NCBI RefSeq assembly: GCF_003258595.1
Contig: NZ_QHHQ01000001.1
Span: forward strand, 1,426,001 to 1,490,000
DNA length: 64,000 nucleotides
Source of the DNA: Acuticoccus sediminis
Lineage (GTDB): Bacteria; Pseudomonadota; Alphaproteobacteria; Rhizobiales; Amorphaceae
Direction: 5' to 3'
This document shows, piece after piece, positions 6,564 to 14,733 of the stretch. Under the pieces are notes generated by a model, which was not told where the DNA came from, did no database searches, and saw only the letters and a program-made list of their open reading frames with translations. A program made the position numbers and the translations under genes. The first letter of the stretch is position 1. Each line of letters opens with the position of its first letter.

Positions 6564-6603
6564 CCCGCCCCTCCCGGATCACGCGTGGAACCGGCGGGGC
6601 GGG
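6564..6603 (+). terminator. Candidate terminator of the first Liv operon
   Basis: CCCGCCCC (6564-6571) pairs perfectly with GGGGCGGG (6596-6603), and the intervening bases contain a further CCCGG/CCGG match. It starts 8 bases after the permease stop. No T-tract follows, so termination is inferred. Confidence 0.4.
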
Positions 6604-6680
6604 CCGGCCATTCGGACATCGTGTTATTGCGACGCGGGCGGGGCCTCCGGGTCCCGTCCGCGTTCGCGTTCCTGGACGGG

Positions 6681-7421
6681 ATGGGGGAAGCCGTGGCGCA
6701 GAATATCTACGACGACCCGGCTTTCTTCGCCGGATACAGTCAGCTCCCGCGGCAGGTCCACGGCCTCGACGGGGCGCCGGAGTGGCCGGCCCTTCGTGCC
6801 ATGCTGCCGGACGTCCGCGGCAAGCGCGTCGTCGACCTCGGCTGCGGCTTCGGCTGGGTGTCGCGCTACCTGCGGGGGGAGGGGGCGGCGTCCGTCCTCG
6901 GCATCGACCTGTCGCGGAACATGATCGCCCGGGCGCGGGCGACCACCGACGACCCTGCCATCGTCTACGAGGTGGCCGACCTCGAGACACTGATCCTTCG
7001 GGAGGCCACGTACGACCTCGCCTTCAGCGCGCTCGCGTTCCACTACATCGCGGACTTCGCCCGGCTCGCCGGCACGATCCATCGCGCCCTGAGCCCCGGC
7101 GGCGTGCTGGTCTTCACGATCGAGCACCCGATCTACATGGCGGCCGATCGCCCGGACTGGATCGCCGGCGCCGGCGGACGCCGGACGTGGCCGGTCAACG
7201 GGTACGCCCTCGAGGGCGTGCGGCGGACGGACTGGTTCGCGCCCGGCGTCGCGAAGCAACACCGGACCCTGGCGACGACCCTCAACACGCTGATCCGCGC
7301 AGGCTTCACCCTGACGGCGGTGGAGGAGTTCGCCCCGACCACGGAGCAGGTCGCAGCCGCTCCGGAACTCGCCGACGAGCTGGAGCGGCCGATGATGCTG
7401 ATGGTCTCGGCACGGCGCTGA
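6681..7421 (+). CDS. Class I SAM-dependent methyltransferase
   Basis: The protein has a Rossmann-type methyltransferase core. Motif I is VVDLGCGFGWVS (about residues 50-61 from this start), the acidic end of strand 2 is VLGIDLS, and YDLAFSALAFHYI is the motif IV region; it resembles UbiE/BioC-like Methyltransf_11 proteins. I use the ATG at 6681; a GTG at 6693 (MAQNIYDDPAFF) would give the N-terminus typical of close relatives, and the frame is open further upstream. The C-terminus has a substrate-domain-like part (VNGYALEGVRRTDWF). Substrate unknown. It is separated from the transporter operon by a hairpin and converges on ribA. Confidence 0.82.
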   Translation: MGEAVAQNIYDDPAFFAGYSQLPRQVHGLDGAPEWPALRAMLPDVRGKRVVDLGCGFGWVSRYLRGEGAASVLGIDLSRNMIARARATTDDPAIVYEVADLETLILREATYDLAFSALAFHYIADFARLAGTIHRALSPGGVLVFTIEHPIYMAADRPDWIAGAGGRRTWPVNGYALEGVRRTDWFAPGVAKQHRTLATTLNTLIRAGFTLTAVEEFAPTTEQVAAAPELADELERPMMLMVSARR

Positions 7422-7463: not shown

Positions 7464-8165
7464 TCAGCGGTCGTAGATGTAGCCGCGTGCGATCTTCTCG
7501 GCGAACTCCTCGGCCGCGCGGGCGGACATCGTCCCCTGGTGGAGGTCCTTCGTCGAGGCGATCTTGACGCCCTCGGCCTCGAGATCGGCGATCTTGCGCG
7601 GGTTGCCGGTCACGAGCTGCACCGACCCGATGCTGAGAGCCTTGATGAGCTTGCCGGCGATGTTGAACGAGCGCTCGTCGACGTCGTGGCCGAGGGCGAG
7701 GTTGGCCTCGTCGGACGTATGCCGCCGCTCCACCCGCTTGCCGTCCACGTAGCCGTACTGGAGCGCCAGGCACTCCAGCTTGGCGCGCATGCCGATCCCG
7801 CGCCCCTCCTGCCGCAGATAGATGAAGACGCCCTCGCGGTTCTCGGCCATCTCCTCCATCGCGACGCGCATCTGGCTGCCGCAGTCGCACATCGACGACC
7901 CGAACGCGTCGCCCAGCAGGCATTCGGAATGGATGCGCGTCAGCACCCCCTTTGCGCCGCGGAACTCCCGCTCCACGGCCGCGGCGAGGTCGTACTCCTC
8001 CAGCCAGTTCCGGCGGCTGTACAGGATCGCCAGATGCGGCGCGTCGCCCATCGACACGCCGAGCGGCTCGAACGCGACGCAAAGCGCGATCTGGCGGCGA
8101 ATCTCCACCGGCGTCACAGCGACGAGATTGAGCGCTGCGAATGACATGGATTCCGACAGAGGCAT
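7464..8165 (-). CDS. ribA: GTP cyclohydrolase II (RibA family)
   Basis: The family converts GTP to 2,5-diamino-6-ribosylamino-4-pyrimidinone 5-phosphate, formate and pyrophosphate, the first step of riboflavin synthesis. The zinc site is intact: C82, C93 and C95 in HSECLLGDAF...CDCG, with the family spacing C-x10-C-x-C. The loop YLRQEGRGIG is also conserved. The ATG at 8165 has GGGAG 11 bases upstream; an ATG at 8147 is possible. It lacks a RibB domain, and its neighbours are not the rib operon: a RibD reductase-domain protein, a PTPS-like protein and sugar/methyl transferases. That suggests a second copy serving a special pathway, although I cannot see the rest of the genome. Confidence 0.93.
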   Translation of the reverse strand: MPLSESMSFAALNLVAVTPVEIRRQIALCVAFEPLGVSMGDAPHLAILYSRRNWLEEYDLAAAVEREFRGAKGVLTRIHSECLLGDAFGSSMCDCGSQMRVAMEEMAENREGVFIYLRQEGRGIGMRAKLECLALQYGYVDGKRVERRHTSDEANLALGHDVDERSFNIAGKLIKALSIGSVQLVTGNPRKIADLEAEGVKIASTKDLHQGTMSARAAEEFAEKIARGYIYDR

Positions 8166-8383
8166 TCGGATCAAATCTCCCACCAGCACGCTGTTGCCAC
8201 CCTCATAATCGTTCGGACGGCGTGCGGTTTCGTGTTGGCCAGCACAATACGACCACGACGCGCCCTGCCAACAACTACGTGCTGTACTAGTTTGGGGTTG
8301 AATGACGGGCCCGACCAGCCCGGTGACCAACCGTCGCACGGAGCTCCAGCATGACGACCACGACCGGAGAGAAAGAGGCAACA

Positions 8384-8929
8384 ATGGAGCGCGGCTCGTA
8401 CTCCTCCGTCGCCAAAATATTCCACTGGCTTACGGTTCTGGCCGTCCTCTTCATGCTGGTGACGGGATTTACCATGACGTACCGGGGCAACCAGCTCGAT
8501 ATCTGGGACGCTCTGACGAACGGGCTCTATTCGAGTCATAAGCTTGTCGGGTTCACGATCTTGTGGCTGACGGCCCTGCGGCTGGTCAACCGCCTGATCC
8601 GCGGAATTCCGCCGATGCGGCCGCGCCTGCCGGTAGCGCAGCGCGTCGTCGCGGCGGCAACGCACTGGGCGCTCTACGCGCTCCTGATCGTCATGCCGCT
8701 CCTCGGCTGGACGGCGGTGTCGATGTTCCCGGCGCTGCAGATCTTCGACTGGTTCTCGCTGCCCGCGCTCACCGCGCCTGACAAGCAGGCCTACGAGGTC
8801 GTCGCCGGATGGCACGTGGTCGGCGCGTTTGTCCTGATCTTCTTCGCCGCGCTCCACATCGGCGCGGCCCTCTTCCACCTGGTCATCAAGCGCGACGGCG
8901 TCTTCATGCGCATGTGGCCCGGACGCTGA
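8384..8929 (+). CDS. Cytochrome b561 family membrane protein
   Basis: This 181-residue protein has four transmembrane helices and should bind two b-type hemes, moving electrons between quinol or small reductants and acceptors at the inner membrane. His14 (IFHW), His52 (SSHKLVG), His144 (AGWHVVG) and His158/His165 near the end are placed like the heme ligands of E. coli CybB. The ATG at 8384 has AAAGAGG 5 bases upstream; an ATG at 8351 in the same frame is an alternative. It starts divergently from ribA and ends 8 bases before the RibD-domain gene, so it is probably cotranscribed with it. Confidence 0.88.
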   Translation: MERGSYSSVAKIFHWLTVLAVLFMLVTGFTMTYRGNQLDIWDALTNGLYSSHKLVGFTILWLTALRLVNRLIRGIPPMRPRLPVAQRVVAAATHWALYALLIVMPLLGWTAVSMFPALQIFDWFSLPALTAPDKQAYEVVAGWHVVGAFVLIFFAALHIGAALFHLVIKRDGVFMRMWPGR

Positions 8930-8937
8930 CCGGCCGC

Positions 8938-9615
8938 ATGCGCATAATCGAAGCGCTGCGGGAGGCGGCGGCGGCCGGCGCCCCGCTCGTCGTGGCGCAG
9001 CTCGGCCAGTCCCTGGACGGACGCATCGCGACCCCGTCCGGCCACTCCCACTACATCAACGGGCCCGAGGCGATCACGTTGCTGCACCGCCTGCGCGCCG
9101 AGGTCGACGCGGTGCTGATCGGCGCCGGGACCGCGCGGGCTGACGACCCGCAACTGACCGTCCGGCACGTCGACGGGCCGAGCCCGGCCCGCGTCCTCAT
9201 CGACCGGCGCCGCTCGGCGGGGGCCCGGCTCAAGCTCCTCGCCGACGACGGCCGCCGGCGCATCGTTTTCGGCGCGCCGCTGGCCGACGACCCACCCGGA
9301 GTCGAGACGATCCCGGCCGACGCGCCGCTGGCGCCCGCCGCCGTGCTGGCGGCGCTCGCCGAGCGGGGACTGAATCGCGTGCTGGTGGAGGGCGGGGCGA
9401 CGACGGTGAGCCTGTTCATCGCGGCCGGGGCGATCGACCGCATCGCCGTCCTCGTCGCGCCGATGATCATCGGCTCGGGACCGACCGGTATCGCGCTGCC
9501 GCCCATCGACCGGCTCGACGGAGCGATCCGGCCGGTCGTCGCCACCGAGACGCTGCCCGGCGGCGACGTGCTGTTCGACTGCGACCTGAGGGGTGGTCAG
9601 AACGTCGCGAGATGA
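8938..9615 (+). CDS. RibD C-terminal domain (pyrimidine reductase) protein
   Basis: The 225-residue protein consists only of the dihydrofolate-reductase-like domain that in RibD reduces the ribosylamino to a ribitylamino pyrimidine with NADPH. Seen motifs are QSLDGRIATPSG, AEVDAVLIGAGTARADDPQL and the nucleotide-binding LVEGGATTVS. No deaminase domain precedes it. The ATG lies 8 bases after the cytochrome b561 gene. Its 3' end overlaps the convergent methyltransferase gene by 19 bases. With the neighbouring GTP cyclohydrolase II it could supply a reduced pyrimidine or pterin intermediate. It could instead be a generic dihydrofolate reductase family member. Confidence 0.85.
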   Translation: MRIIEALREAAAAGAPLVVAQLGQSLDGRIATPSGHSHYINGPEAITLLHRLRAEVDAVLIGAGTARADDPQLTVRHVDGPSPARVLIDRRRSAGARLKLLADDGRRRIVFGAPLADDPPGVETIPADAPLAPAAVLAALAERGLNRVLVEGGATTVSLFIAAGAIDRIAVLVAPMIIGSGPTGIALPPIDRLDGAIRPVVATETLPGGDVLFDCDLRGGQNVAR

Positions 9616-10376
9616 TCGCTGTGGCCGACGAAGATCGCGCTCGCGTCCCGCCGGGCCTCGCGCCACGCGCGGATCTCGCCGGCCCGATCGGGCATGATCT
9701 CCAGCGCCGTCTCCGCCCAGCCGTCCAGCTTGGCGTTCATGAGGTCGGCGTCGAGGGGCGCCGTGAGGGTCCAGGGGCTGTCGGCCACCTCGACCGTGGC
9801 GCCGACGGACTGCAGCGTATCGGTCAGGGCGCCGGCGGCGTCCGGGCCGAGCGCGCGGCCGAAGGACTTCATGCCGCGCTGGTGCGCATTGAAGGCGTCG
9901 ATCATCGCGCCGTCGAACGGATGCTCCGGCTCGACGCGCAGCCGCCCGTCAAAGGTCAGCATCGCCAGAAGCGGGATCCGGTGCCGCGCCAGCGCCTCCG
10001 CCAGCCGGTCCAGGAAGGCCTGCGAGGTGAGGTCGAAGAGGGCGGAGGCGGTGACCGCGTCGGGTGGCTCGGACCAGAGCGGATCGACCGTCAGGTCCGC
10101 GTGGTGGGTGGCGACCCGGAGTCCCTGGTAGTGCTGGAGGTTCTTCTGGGCGACCTGCAGCAGATCGGCGTCAGCGTCGACAAGGGTCCAGTCCTGCGGC
10201 GGGCGTATGTGCGGGAAGAGCTCGCGAACGGTGGCGCCGGTGCCGGAGCCGAGGTCGATCACCCGCAGCGGGCGGCGCAGCGTGTCGGTCAGCTTGGCGA
10301 AGTGCGTCACCAGCGGCGAACGGGCGCGCCGGTCCGCGCCGCTGCGCATGGCGAGCCATGCCGCGGAGAACGTCAT
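9597..10376 (-). CDS. Class I SAM-dependent methyltransferase of the pterin-like island
   Basis: The 259-residue product has motif I VIDLGSGTGATVREL near residue 38 and an acidic strand-2 end in WTLVDADADLLQ. The rest is specific to its own subfamily (WSEPPDAVTASALFDL) and I do not know its substrate. The ATG at 10376 overlaps the stop of the glycosyltransferase gene (ATGA), so the two are translationally coupled in a four-gene minus-strand operon. A modifying step on a pathway product is the likely role. Confidence 0.8.
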   Translation of the reverse strand: MTFSAAWLAMRSGADRRARSPLVTHFAKLTDTLRRPLRVIDLGSGTGATVRELFPHIRPPQDWTLVDADADLLQVAQKNLQHYQGLRVATHHADLTVDPLWSEPPDAVTASALFDLTSQAFLDRLAEALARHRIPLLAMLTFDGRLRVEPEHPFDGAMIDAFNAHQRGMKSFGRALGPDAAGALTDTLQSVGATVEVADSPWTLTAPLDADLMNAKLDGWAETALEIMPDRAGEIRAWREARRDASAIFVGHSDHLATF

Positions 10377-11416
10377 GCCGCGCCCACGGCGCCGGACAGG
10401 CAATCCGCGATCGCAGCGGCGGACATCTCCCAGGTGGCGGCGTCCTTCGCGGCGGCGCGCGCGCCGTCGGACAGCCGGGCGGCGAGGGTCTCGTCCGTCA
10501 GGACACGGCGCAGCGCGTCGGCGAGCGCGACGGGATCGTCGACGTCCACCAGCACCCCCGCCTCGGGCGGGACGACGGAGGGCACGGCGCCGCCACGCGT
10601 CGCGACGATCGGAAGTCCCGACGCCATCGCTTCGAGAAAGACCATACCAAATCCCTCATAGCGCGTGGCCAGCGTGAACAGGGTCGACCCGGCGTAGTGC
10701 TGGCGGATGTCGTCCTCGTGGAGGGCGCCGGTCAACGTCAGCCTGTCCGCCATGGGTGCGGCCATGGCCTCGATCCCGGCTGCCGTCTCGGGATCCCAGG
10801 CGTTCGAGCCGATAATGACCCCTTCCCAGGGAATGTCCATGATCCGGCTCAGGGCGTCGAGGAGAACGTCGTGGCCCTTGCGCGCGATGAGCGATCCGAC
10901 CGCGACGATCTTCGGCGGTGTCACGGGGGTCCGCGGCTGCTGCCAGCGCGGGTCGAGGCCGGGGACCGCGACGGTGATCGCCTCGCGCGGGACGGCGAAG
11001 TCGGACACCAGCGTGTCGGCCGTCGGCGGGCTCGTCACCACGACGCGGGTCGCGACGGTCAGCGCCGACCGCTCGGCGGCGCCATAGCGCGTGGCGTCCG
11101 CCTCGGAGAGGCCGGTCTCGAGCGCCAGCGGGTGATGCACCAGCGCGACGAGCGGCGCCTTGACCTGCCGCAGCGCGCTCGCGGGGAGGACCGAGTAGGC
11201 GAGGCCGTCCACCAGCAGCACGTCCGCGTCGGCGGCCCGAAGCGCGGCGATCGTCTCGTCGATGTCGGACGCGGAGGGGTCGGGGAAGCTCCCCGGCAGG
11301 ACGAGGTGGGTCACCTCGTGGCCGAGCGCCCGCAGCTCGGCCAGCATGCGGCGGTCGTAGCGGTAGCCTCCCGAGGGCGCGTCGATGTCGCCCGGGATGG
11401 CGAACGCGATGCGCAT
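10373..11416 (-). CDS. GT4-family glycosyltransferase
   Basis: This 347-residue GT-B fold enzyme transfers a sugar from an activated donor. The N-terminal domain starts MRIAFAIPGDIDAPSGGYRYDR, with the usual glycine-rich turn. The C-terminal donor domain has KIVAVGSLIARKGHD and the EX7E motif in YEGFGMVFLEAMASG (about residues 265-280). It begins one base after the PTPS-like gene and overlaps the methyltransferase gene. In this context it probably glycosylates a pyrimidine or pterin intermediate rather than a polysaccharide, but that is inference. Confidence 0.87.
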   Translation of the reverse strand: MRIAFAIPGDIDAPSGGYRYDRRMLAELRALGHEVTHLVLPGSFPDPSASDIDETIAALRAADADVLLVDGLAYSVLPASALRQVKAPLVALVHHPLALETGLSEADATRYGAAERSALTVATRVVVTSPPTADTLVSDFAVPREAITVAVPGLDPRWQQPRTPVTPPKIVAVGSLIARKGHDVLLDALSRIMDIPWEGVIIGSNAWDPETAAGIEAMAAPMADRLTLTGALHEDDIRQHYAGSTLFTLATRYEGFGMVFLEAMASGLPIVATRGGAVPSVVPPEAGVLVDVDDPVALADALRRVLTDETLAARLSDGARAAAKDAATWEMSAAAIADCLSGAVGAA

Positions 11417-11417
11417 C

Positions 11418-11816
11418 CTAGATTTTGGCCTCGTACCACGCCTTGGCGATGTGCGACTCGTTCAGCGTCACGCGGATCCGCGCGACGTTGCGCCCGTCGT
11501 CGCCGAGGGTGCCGTCCTTGGCCGCGGCGGCGAGGCGGTCGAAGATCCAGCGGCACAGGACCTCGGTCGTCGAGCGTGTGGACTTGAAGTCCGGCAGCTC
11601 GTCGAGGTTGGCGTAGTTGAGGGGCGCGAGCACCTCCTTCAGCGTCTCGGTCGCGAGGCCGATGTCGATCACGATGTCGTTCGGGCCGAGCGTCTCGGTG
11701 AAAAAGGTCGCGTCCACCACGAAGGTCGCGCCGTGCATGTTCTGCGCGGGGCCGAACGCCGGGCCCGGCAGGCTGTGGGCGATCATGATGTGATCGCGGA
11801 CTTCGAGGGCGTACAT
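11418..11816 (-). CDS. PTPS/QueD-like protein with altered active site
   Basis: The 132-residue protein is the length of a 6-pyruvoyl/6-carboxytetrahydropterin synthase. It keeps the fold landmarks: an early His in MIAHSLPG, an MHGATF segment where QueD has LHGHSF, VIDIG for VIDF, STTEVLCRWIFD for PTSEVLAKWIWD, and a late Glu in LNESH. Key residues are changed. The catalytic Cys four positions before the HGH motif is gone, the second His of HGH is Ala, and the Asp-His pair of LDHH reads LNYA. Only two of three zinc His remain, so ordinary PTPS or QueD chemistry is doubtful. It sits between the MDR and GT4 genes with gaps of 3 and 1 bases. Confidence 0.85.
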   Translation of the reverse strand: MYALEVRDHIMIAHSLPGPAFGPAQNMHGATFVVDATFFTETLGPNDIVIDIGLATETLKEVLAPLNYANLDELPDFKSTRSTTEVLCRWIFDRLAAAAKDGTLGDDGRNVARIRVTLNESHIAKAWYEAKI

Positions 11817-11819
11817 GGT

Positions 11820-12818
11820 CTACTCCGGGGCGTAGTCGAGCGTGATCGCGAGCGGTCCGTCATCCTGGAGCAGGCCGGGGAGGCGGTCGGGCGCGTCGGC
11901 GAATGCAATGCGGTGGGTCAGAAGCACGTCCAGCGCCGGGTCGTCCAGCAACCCCAGGGCGGTATCGAGCCGGCGGGCGTTCGACCACCGCGCCGCGCGG
12001 TTCGCCGGAACCTTGCCGACCTGCGACGAGACCAGCGACAACCGCCGCGAGTGGAAGGCGCCGCCGAGGGGGATCGCCGTCGTCCCTTCGCCGACCCAGC
12101 TCGCCTCGACGATGCGGCCCTCCAGGCCGACCGCGTCGATCGCCGCGGCGAGGGCCGCGCCGCTGCCGCTGGCGTTGATGGCGACGTCGACCTCGCCCGA
12201 CGCCGTCTCGGCGAAGGCCGCGCCCATCGCCTCCGCAAAGGGCCGCTTGGCGACGTCGCGGTCGATCACCGTGACCGTCGTCGCGGGGATGCGGGCGAGG
12301 AGACGTGCGACGAGGAGGCCCACCACGCCGGCACCAATGACGAGGATTTGATCCCCGGGAGCGGCCCCGCTGTCCCATACGACATTGAGCGCCGTCTCCA
12401 TATTTGCGCCCAATGTGGCGCGACGCGGTGGCACCGCGAGGGGCAACGGGATGGCCGAGGCTTGAGGGACCGTCAGATGGGTCTGGTGCGGATGGAGCAC
12501 GAAGACGCGCTCGCCGAGGCGTTCGGCCGGGCCGTCGACGATCTCGCCCACCAGCGCGTAGCCGTACTTCACCGGAAAGGGGAAGGCGCCCTCCTGGTTG
12601 GGGCAGCGCATGCGCTCGGCCTCCGATTCCGGCACCCGGCCCTCCAGAACGAGGCGCTCGGTGCCGCGGCTGACGGCCGAGTGCGTCGCGGCGACGCGCA
12701 CCTCGCCCGCCTCGAGCGGCGGGAGGGGGGCAGGCTGCAGCGCATAGCGACCGGGCGACTCGCACCACAGTGCTGTCGCATGTCGCACCATGCTGGACGT
12801 GGGGAATGATTTGTCCAT
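11820..12818 (-). CDS. MDR-family zinc-binding dehydrogenase, BchC-like
   Basis: This medium-chain dehydrogenase/reductase starts the minus-strand operon. The nucleotide-binding glycine motif is VIGAGVVGLLVA, and an acidic residue follows in VIDRDVAK. The N-terminal half (THSAVSRGTERLVLEGRVP, VKYGYALVGE, VFVLHPHQT) resembles the BchC-like branch of MDR enzymes rather than ordinary alcohol dehydrogenases. The classical structural zinc Cys cluster is absent. The ATG at 12818 has GGGG upstream; 12791 (MVRHATALWCE) is an alternative. It probably oxidises or reduces a pathway intermediate. Confidence 0.82.
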   Translation of the reverse strand: MDKSFPTSSMVRHATALWCESPGRYALQPAPLPPLEAGEVRVAATHSAVSRGTERLVLEGRVPESEAERMRCPNQEGAFPFPVKYGYALVGEIVDGPAERLGERVFVLHPHQTHLTVPQASAIPLPLAVPPRRATLGANMETALNVVWDSGAAPGDQILVIGAGVVGLLVARLLARIPATTVTVIDRDVAKRPFAEAMGAAFAETASGEVDVAINASGSGAALAAAIDAVGLEGRIVEASWVGEGTTAIPLGGAFHSRRLSLVSSQVGKVPANRAARWSNARRLDTALGLLDDPALDVLLTHRIAFADAPDRLPGLLQDDGPLAITLDYAPE

Positions 12819-12927: not shown

Positions 12928-14733
12928 ATGGCTGAGATGACGACACCGACCACGGCCCCTGCGACCATTTCGCCGGCATCGGAGCTGCCGCGACGACTTG
13001 CCGGTCGCCGGATCATCTTTGCCGCGCTCAATATTGCGACGATCGCCGGTCTCGCCGGGGCGATGCTGGCGCTGCTCGCGGCCGACGGCGTCGGCACCGT
13101 CGAGGGGCTGATGTGGGGCGCGTACGTCCTGACCCTGCCGTGGCTGTCGATCGGCTTCTGGAACGCCGTCATCGGCACCGCCGTCATTGCGCGGGGGCCG
13201 CGCCCCGGCGATCCGCTGGCCCTCGATGACGCGGCCGGAACGCCCATCGTCACCCGCACCGCCATCGTCATGACCCTGCGCAACGAGGCGCCGGCGGAGG
13301 CGATCGGCCGGCTGCGGCTCATGCTGGACGACCTCGAAAGCTCCGGCGAGGCGGAGCACTTCGACATCCATGTCCTGTCGGACACGAACGACCCGGCGAT
13401 CGCCGCCGCCGAGGCGGACGAGATGGCCCACTGGCGCCACGGCGCAACCCGCCCCGACCGCATCCACTATCGCCGCCGCACCGACAATCGCGGCTTCAAG
13501 GCGGGCAACATCGAGGACTTCTGCGACGCGCACGCCGGCGACTACGACTTCTTCCTGACCCTCGACGCGGACAGCTTCCTGTCCGCCCGGGTGGTGCTGC
13601 GCCTGGTGCGAACGATGCAGGCCGCACCGCACCTCGGCGTCCTCCAGACCCTCGCCATCGGCACGCCGTCGACGTCGGTCTTCACCCGTACCTTCCAGTT
13701 CGGCATGCGCCACGGCATGCGCGCCTACACCGCCGGCTCGGTCTGGTGGACGGGCGACTGCGGTCCGTACTGGGGCCACAACGCGCTGATCCGCATGGCG
13801 CCCTTCCATGCCCACTGCCGCCTGCCCGAGCTTCCCGGCGACGGCCCGCTCGGCGGTCACGTGATGAGCCACGACCAGGTCGAGGCGGTGCTGATGCGCC
13901 GCGCCGGCTACCACGTCCGCGTCATCGCCGAGGAGAGCGAGAGCTGGGAGGAGAACCCGCCCACGCTGCCGGACTTCATCGGCCGCGAGCTGCGCTGGTG
14001 CCAGGGCAATTTCCAGTACTTTCAGCTTCTCGGCATGCCCGGCCTGAAGCCCGTGAGCCGCGTGCAGCTCGTGCTGGCGATCCTCATGTACGTCGGCGCG
14101 CCGGCGTGGATGGTGTTCATCCTGCTCGGCGCCGGCGCCGTGGCGGCCAACGGGGCGAGCGTGCCGATGGGGTGGGGGCTGGCGCTGGTCGGCGTCATCC
14201 TCTTCATGTGCTTCGCGCCGAAGATCATGGGGCTCCTCGGCGTTTTCGCCAGCCCGACGCAGTCGCGCCGTTACGGCGGGCGGTTCCGCGTGGCGCTTGG
14301 CGGCGCGTTCGAGCTGGTCGCGTCCACCCTGATGGCACCCGCGGTCGCCTTCGCCGTCGCGGTGTTCGCCTTCGGGCTGATGTTCGGCAAGCGGGTCGAG
14401 TGGCGGGCGCAGGCGCGGGCGGTCCGGCAGGTCACGTGGCGCGAGGCCTGGGCGAGCTTCCTGCCGCAGACCGTCTTCGGCATCGCCCTCCTGGCGCTGT
14501 TCGTGGTGGCGGCGCCGAACCTCATCTGGTTCGCGGCGCCGGTCGTCGCCGGGCTCGTCCTGGCGGTGCCGTTCGCGGTGCTGACGTCGGACCCCGGGCT
14601 GGGCCTCGCCATGACGCGCACCGGGGTCTGCGCCATCCCGGAGGAGGCCGTGGTGCCCGCCGCGCTGGTGCGGCTGCGGCAGATCAAGGTCTCGCAGGGC
14701 GGCGACCCGGGCGCGGTCAGCGCCACCGCGTGA
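12928..14733 (+). CDS. opgH: Glucans biosynthesis glucosyltransferase H (OpgH/MdoH)
   Basis: OpgH is the inner-membrane GT2 enzyme that polymerises beta-1,2 osmoregulated periplasmic glucan from UDP-glucose. The 601-residue protein has two N-terminal helices (about 28-50 and 62-88) and a catalytic domain with DADS (213-216), the RRTDNRGFKAGNI motif, GPYWGHNALIRM, SHDQ with the putative base D316 and ELRWCQGN for the QxxRW region. Several C-terminal helices follow. It is shorter than E. coli OpgH (about 850) and lacks the long N- and C-terminal extensions. No opgG lies in the window. It is divergent from the MDR gene. Confidence 0.85.
   Translation: MAEMTTPTTAPATISPASELPRRLAGRRIIFAALNIATIAGLAGAMLALLAADGVGTVEGLMWGAYVLTLPWLSIGFWNAVIGTAVIARGPRPGDPLALDDAAGTPIVTRTAIVMTLRNEAPAEAIGRLRLMLDDLESSGEAEHFDIHVLSDTNDPAIAAAEADEMAHWRHGATRPDRIHYRRRTDNRGFKAGNIEDFCDAHAGDYDFFLTLDADSFLSARVVLRLVRTMQAAPHLGVLQTLAIGTPSTSVFTRTFQFGMRHGMRAYTAGSVWWTGDCGPYWGHNALIRMAPFHAHCRLPELPGDGPLGGHVMSHDQVEAVLMRRAGYHVRVIAEESESWEENPPTLPDFIGRELRWCQGNFQYFQLLGMPGLKPVSRVQLVLAILMYVGAPAWMVFILLGAGAVAANGASVPMGWGLALVGVILFMCFAPKIMGLLGVFASPTQSRRYGGRFRVALGGAFELVASTLMAPAVAFAVAVFAFGLMFGKRVEWRAQARAVRQVTWREAWASFLPQTVFGIALLALFVVAAPNLIWFAAPVVAGLVLAVPFAVLTSDPGLGLAMTRTGVCAIPEEAVVPAALVRLRQIKVSQGGDPGAVSATA

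Follow-up and report, generated by a model that had tools for sequence, protein, structure and literature searches.

The stretch of Acuticoccus sediminis DNA examined here, hereafter the window, is 64,000 nucleotides long and corresponds to positions 1426001-1490000 of contig 1 in a genome of 7.76 Mb and 44 contigs. Between approximately 7464 and 14733 it contains a cluster of genes that lie on both strands and are not a single operon. Four of these form a minus-strand operon encoding, in order, a BchC-like MDR dehydrogenase (11820..12818; ADH_zinc_N 32.3 bits, barely above the cut-off of 31.8, and TIGR01202 48.2 bits), a PTPS-like T-fold protein (11418..11816; Pfam PF01242, 81 bits), a GT4 glycosyltransferase (10373..11416; PF13692, 106.5 bits), and a class I S-adenosylmethionine (SAM)-dependent methyltransferase (9597..10376; PF13649, Methyltransf_25, 38.8 bits), with gaps of 3 bases and 1 base followed by a 4-base overlap. 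Converging on the methyltransferase gene, and overlapping it by 19 bases, is the plus-strand gene of a stand-alone RibD_C reductase (8938..9615; PF01872, 125 bits), directly 5' of which is a plus-strand gene for a cytochrome b561 family membrane protein (8351..8929; PF01292, 97.6 bits). The gene for a paralogue of GTP cyclohydrolase II (GCH II, or RibA; 7464..8165, minus strand, start codon uncertain; PF00925, 118 bits, cut-off 23.3) is transcribed away from the b561 gene. At the other end, an OpgH/MdoH-like GT2 membrane glycosyltransferase (12928..14733, plus strand; NCBIfam MdoH models) is divergent from the MDR gene, 109 bases from its start.

The original prediction had placed six of these families and a tightly spaced four-gene minus-strand operon here, and both are recovered, the families by their Pfam matches and the operon by its spacing. 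It was equally right that the zinc cysteines of the GCH II are intact, all three being present, that the RibD reductase domain stands alone, with Pfam finding only RibD_C, and that the PTPS-like protein is degenerate, its catalytic residues and one zinc ligand having gone. The gene list was correct as far as it went, but the prediction had overlooked the genes for b561 and the OpgH-like protein, as well as the residue changes in RibA and RibD.

A scan of contigs with a T-fold pattern gave 587 matches, of which 556 proved to code for T-fold relatives; the best 80 loci were kept. Beside these, some of which are on short contigs, tblastn found MDR at 78, the methyltransferase at 74, GT4 at 72, the OpgH-like gene at 62, RibD at 52, b561 at 38, and RibA at 37. 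Another methyltransferase gene, upstream at 6585-7421, was rejected as a member of the cluster, with a partial match at 1 of the 80 loci. The nearest T-fold relative among the named records of the best 80 is from Acuticoccus yangtzensis (83%), and the T-fold gene is present in all ten of the ten genomes searched from the same family as A. sediminis.

Because the best 80 loci are skewed towards close relatives, 398 Pseudomonadota genomes were drawn as a sample, with scoring confined to the best 10 candidates per genome for the T-fold protein, 5 for MDR, and 6 for RibD. The T-fold protein is present in 27 of these (about 7%), A. sediminis included, and the MDR profile (threshold E 1e-40) matches the identical 27 genomes and no other. 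The RibD profile (threshold E 1e-30) matches 244 of the 398 genomes overall. Cluster-type RibD, scoring 260-314 bits with the next score at 164 bits, is found in 24 genomes, all of them among the 27; in 23 of the 24 no more than about 4 kb separates it from the T-fold gene, against some 62 kb in G016 (G and L numbers are our handles for genomes and loci). Three genomes, G382, G392, and G086, have no RibD at that score, and in G086 the T-fold gene is only about 2.5 kb from the end of its contig.

At the 26 loci from the T-fold-positive sampled genomes other than A. sediminis, hereafter the unbiased loci, there is a core of MDR (26), GT4 (25), the methyltransferase (24), and RibD (22). The T-fold protein itself was scored in 25 of the 26, the methyltransferase match having overlapped the T-fold gene in L144. 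Other genes are more variable: RibA is found at 11, b561 at 7, and a creatininase-family gene at 6. Membrane or glycan genes are represented by a CDP-alcohol transferase (12), OpgH-like (12), LPG_synthase_TM-type (11), and FkbM (8) proteins; eight of the 12 OpgH-like genes adjoin MDR, and the other four are weak matches (34-39%) away from MDR in loci that have the CDP-alcohol transferase.

The cluster also extends beyond the Pseudomonadota sample. The T-fold protein is encoded on 20 plasmid records, of which 13 were opened (two, L177 and L178, are unannotated and were read by tblastn), and the order MDR, T-fold, GT4, methyltransferase is kept in Streptomyces fungicidicus, Streptomyces globisporus, Microbacterium, and the gammaproteobacterium Candidatus Thiodictyon. 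The Streptomyces plasmid loci L096 and L178 bring together the T-fold, MDR, GT4, methyltransferase, and creatininase genes with a GCH II that has Met at a key site discussed below. The window differs from these in having the OpgH-like gene instead of the CDP-alcohol transferase, a RibA with Leu at that site and an insertion, and no adjacent creatininase. On two further Streptomyces plasmids (L097, L099) the T-fold gene occurs without its cluster partners, near genes for a BTAD regulator, a sigma factor, a cupin, and an MBL-fold protein. In a record titled Oceanobacillus (L029) the cluster is arranged as in the alphaproteobacteria, and this may be a mislabelled genome.

A search of plasmids with MDR reached 12 haloarchaeal records, of which five were read, from gene tables that are incomplete. 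The T-fold gene follows MDR in three of the five (L184, L187, L188); in L185 the T-fold reading is interrupted and no gene is listed, and in L186 no T-fold was recognised. GT4 is next in L185, L187, and L188, and an archaeal GTP cyclohydrolase III (GCH III) is directly before MDR in L184 and L186, the family having been checked for L184. The gene set is thus real and conserved in bacteria, with a related form in haloarchaea. A full-text search of the open-licence literature found no paper describing it.

By comparison with QueD, two zinc ligands of the T-fold protein are kept (H13, H27) and the third His is Ala29, changing HGH to HGA. Ala29 is invariant in 28 aligned T-fold sequences. The catalytic Cys-Asp-His places are occupied by Ala23, Asn66, and Tyr67 in the window protein, Tyr67 being invariant and Ala23 nearly so; QueD presumably carries Cys at the first of these, and the Ala seen there in aligned solved chains is taken to be a mutant. 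The C-terminal Glu119 is invariant in the 28 sequences and may be the counterpart of the Glu that anchors the pterin in QueD and PTPS, although the alignment to the QueD chains stops before it. In haloarchaeal T-fold proteins the HxH pair is kept and there is no Cys in that region. A role as QueD in queuosine synthesis was rejected, as the protein scores 43.6 bits against a cut-off of 89.25 and the catalytic residues have gone. It is the sole PTPS-family match in its own genome, where QueD was not found, and A. sediminis may lack a de novo route to queuosine.

The closest solved chain to the T-fold protein is the PTPS homologue SCO6650 of Streptomyces coelicolor (PDB 3d7j; E 5.1e-40 over residues 1-130), which shares the motifs VRDHIMIAHS and HGATF. 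SCO6650 is said to lack zinc and the catalytic triad and not to carry out the PTPS reaction. Its structure has been solved, and we know of no reported function.

The Lys that bacterial RibD has a short way ahead of the SLDG motif, and that we assume to be functional there, is replaced in the cluster RibD. Of 90 aligned rows, a set that includes the window and some genomes represented twice, 88 have Gln, one His, and one a gap. The other reductase motifs are kept. Aligned archaeal-type reductases have Asn at this site, and the RibD that serves riboflavin synthesis in A. sediminis has the Lys, together with both deaminase and reductase domains. The replacement by Gln suggests that the substrate is non-deaminated. 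In addition to these proteins, there is a RibD_C match with one internal TAG stop elsewhere in the genome (L089, G000 C2:1421102).

The cluster shares its first enzyme families with riboflavin synthesis (GCH II and RibD, or in archaea GCH III and ArfB), and probably the same early pyrimidines. It differs from that pathway in having no RibB, RibE, RibH, or deaminase, in the change of Lys to Gln, and in the additional MDR, T-fold, GT4, and methyltransferase genes. The original prediction had noted the absence of ribB, ribE, and a deaminase, which Pfam bears out, ribH being absent as well. It had also proposed looking for recurrence of the families in other genomes, which is seen in the 80-locus, 26-locus, and 398-genome searches, and for a second riboflavin set in this genome; a ribD-ribE-ribH operon, RibB, and a canonical-looking RibA are indeed present elsewhere. 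With these separate genes, the window RibA and RibD are not the sole copies, and the cluster core is separable from riboflavin synthesis in A. sediminis. The claim that the cluster does not belong to the riboflavin pathway is supported for this genome, but not without qualification for six others of the same order, in which no GCH II except the cluster RibA scores highly. A riboflavin bypass was rated low, given the separate ribD-ribE-ribH operon and the Gln in RibD.

The zinc cysteines read CCC in the window RibA, as they do in 61 of the 62 rows aligned; the last row is a gapped fragment. When aligned to PDB 2bz0, the window protein has Leu at the site of a Tyr in canonical GCH II, which we take to be the catalytic Tyr105 of E. 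coli. Among the 62 rows this site is Tyr in 50, Leu in nine, Met in two, and within the gapped fragment in one; the Leu rows come from the window and from eight loci within its clade, with three genomes counted twice, and both Met rows are from Streptomyces. The window RibA also has a 9-residue insertion relative to E. coli, and scores 132.9 bits against the NCBIfam equivalog TIGR00505, below the cut-off of 205.85.

There are four GCH II matches in the genome, including the window copy. L001 is canonical, with the Tyr, and L004 has a GTP_CH_N domain. A fusion to RibB is present at L003 (G000 C7:130361), with a RibA part that has no zinc cysteines. The cluster RibA is likewise an extra copy in G341 and in four genomes from another class, G395, G308, G050, and G314. 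Of the extra copies outside the class, four are at the cluster and a fifth, in G086, is on another contig. In the six same-order genomes mentioned above (G047, G217, G200, G012, G297, G091), where other GCH II matches score about 110 bits or less, the cluster RibA probably serves riboflavin synthesis too, so RibA can be shared between the two. Its presence at 11 of the 26 unbiased loci makes it a variable member of the cluster. Beside the same core there are interchangeable GTP-opening enzymes: Tyr-, Leu-, and Met-type GCH II, and archaeal GCH III.

The Streptomyces coelicolor GCH II SCO6655, with Met at the Tyr position, reportedly releases a formylated pyrimidine. According to PMC9478397, GCH III makes such a formylated product, AFRPP, which is deformylated by the creatininase-family protein BrbF, and riboflavin synthesis is argued there to be modular and, in S. 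meliloti, to include a formamidase of the creatininase family. Creatininase-family genes, likened to BrbF by family only, are present at 17 of 128 cluster loci, and at one haloarchaeal locus. By RibA type, these 17 are beside the Tyr type in 13 cases, the Met type in two, and no RibA in two, with none beside a Leu-type RibA in the stretches examined. The creatininase was accordingly rejected as a strict partner of altered RibA and, being mostly found with Tyr-type RibA or without RibA, its link to deformylation is suggestive only. The window has no creatininase gene beside its cluster.

The MDR protein scores far under the BchC model TIGR01202, for which the cut-off is 291.25, and a true BchC role in bacteriochlorophyll synthesis was rejected. 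At the places of Cys and His in zinc alcohol dehydrogenases, using motif positions that we take to be those of the zinc ligands, it has the conserved columns SRGTE (SPGTE in haloarchaea) and YGY, suggesting a dehydrogenase that works without zinc on the hydroxyl of a side chain. In a PDB search by sequence, the nearest solved chain to GT4 is a D-inositol 3-phosphate glycosyltransferase.

The position preceding MDR, taken as within 2.6 kb, was classified at 128 loci, some genomes being represented twice. It contains an OpgH-like gene at 72, a CDP-alcohol phosphatidyltransferase at 17, both at none, and neither at 28, with a contig edge at 5 and no adjacent MDR at 6; the thresholds miss a few, such as L009 and L158 (OpgH-like by tblastn) and L096 (CDP-alcohol transferase). 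This slot is thus held by either of two unrelated membrane enzymes. The window OpgH-like protein is reminiscent of OpgGH osmoregulated periplasmic glucan synthesis, passing two of nine MdoH cut-offs (NF003958, 522.9 against 419, and NF003962, 486.3 against 328) and failing the seven other listed models, but there is no MdoG beside it. Two MdoG loci are found elsewhere in the genome, one of them beside an OpgH-like gene whose product is 30-37% identical to the cluster OpgH proteins. In L049 an ABC transporter scoring 847.7, against a glucan ABC transporter cut-off of 733, is located with the OpgH-like gene. The genes of the membrane slot, and this exporter, suggest that the product is exported or attached to the membrane.

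Taken together, the cluster probably encodes a dedicated route that leaves GTP metabolism before riboflavin, passes through a pyrimidine in formylated or diamino form, and ends in a pteridine bearing a sugar and a methyl group. RibA would open GTP to AFRPP and/or the diamino pyrimidine DARoPP; the change of Tyr to Leu in the window suggests AFRPP, in which case a separate deformylase would be needed. The Gln-type RibD, judged by its residues, would reduce the non-deaminated pyrimidine, so that the 2-amino group of a pterin would be retained. The T-fold protein, one zinc ligand short, may bind an intermediate resembling a pterin, and ring closure may also be its task. Going by their families, the MDR protein would oxidise or reduce a side-chain hydroxyl, GT4 would attach a sugar, and the methyltransferase would add a methyl group. 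The OpgH-like protein or CDP-alcohol transferase and b561 suggest a product that is possibly exported or membrane-linked, as do the glucan-type ABC exporter or flippase-like protein encoded in some relatives.

A product of the pteridine class is the most economical reading of these predicted reactions, and on balance the favoured one. The original prediction, a glycosylated and methylated pyrimidine or pterin that might serve as a cofactor or signal, is supported in part, with such a use remaining conjectural. In cyanobacteria and Chlorobium, pterin glycosides are built on the products of GTP cyclohydrolase I, whereas the start here would be GCH II or GCH III. Glycosylated pterin end products, and a pteridine glycosyltransferase, do have precedents there (PMC5683033, PMC13259868).

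Several observations weigh against a dedicated pteridine route. RibA is at fewer than half of the unbiased loci, and in the six same-order genomes no second GCH II scores highly. The creatininase does not track altered RibA and is missing beside the window cluster; the closest one that the genome encodes shares 31% identity with a creatininase from a cluster locus and lies some 22 kb from RibA. Among the 28 T-fold sequences the residue at the Asp place varies, with Asp kept in L098. In the haloarchaea, no RibD is annotated at any of the five loci, subject to their incomplete gene tables, the T-fold proteins retain the HxH histidines and share only 26-29% identity with the bacterial ones, and the methyltransferase matches are weak.

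It might instead be proposed that this is a cassette for a membrane glycan or glycolipid, in which RibA, RibD, and the T-fold protein supply a pteridine only as cofactor for, or decoration of, the glycan. The four types of membrane and glycan gene at the unbiased loci would fit, as would the L049 transporter, the inositol monophosphatase in L068 and L181, and the solved relatives of GT4, which include inositol-phosphate and phosphatidylinositol-mannoside glycosyltransferases. The membrane genes differ by lineage, however, while MDR and the T-fold protein are constant, and such a cassette is unlikely. More doubtful again is a specific form of the pteridine route, in which a glycosylated, methylated redox pteridine made from DARoPP or AFRPP rather than from GTP cyclohydrolase I products, with the rebuilt T-fold protein closing or holding the ring, would be attached to the membrane or a glycan and exchange electrons with b561, in bacteria and archaea alike.

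That the cluster is an auxiliary module for riboflavin or flavin secretion, giving an extra route to DARoPP, seems less probable still. It would account for the six genomes with their only high-scoring GCH II at the cluster and would agree with the modular synthesis argued for in PMC9478397, with its S. meliloti formamidase, but the cluster has none of ribB, ribE, ribH, or a deaminase, the ribD-ribE-ribH operon is elsewhere, and its RibD has lost the Lys of the riboflavin enzyme. The presence of MDR, GT4, the methyltransferase, and the T-fold protein is also against it, since none of these has, to our knowledge, a role in riboflavin synthesis. A chance neighbourhood of unrelated genes is scarcely credible: GT4 and SAM methyltransferases are common families, but two of the genes share an identical distribution in 27 of 398 genomes, and the same gene order is found from the alphaproteobacteria to Streptomyces.

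If there is indeed a dedicated pteridine route at these loci, a conserved compound whose genes occur in about 7% of the sampled Pseudomonadota, on plasmids of actinobacteria and, as a related set, in haloarchaea would be absent from metabolic maps. The labels 6-carboxytetrahydropterin synthase, GTP cyclohydrolase II, and RibD would be wrong for genes at such loci, and there would be a role for SCO6650.

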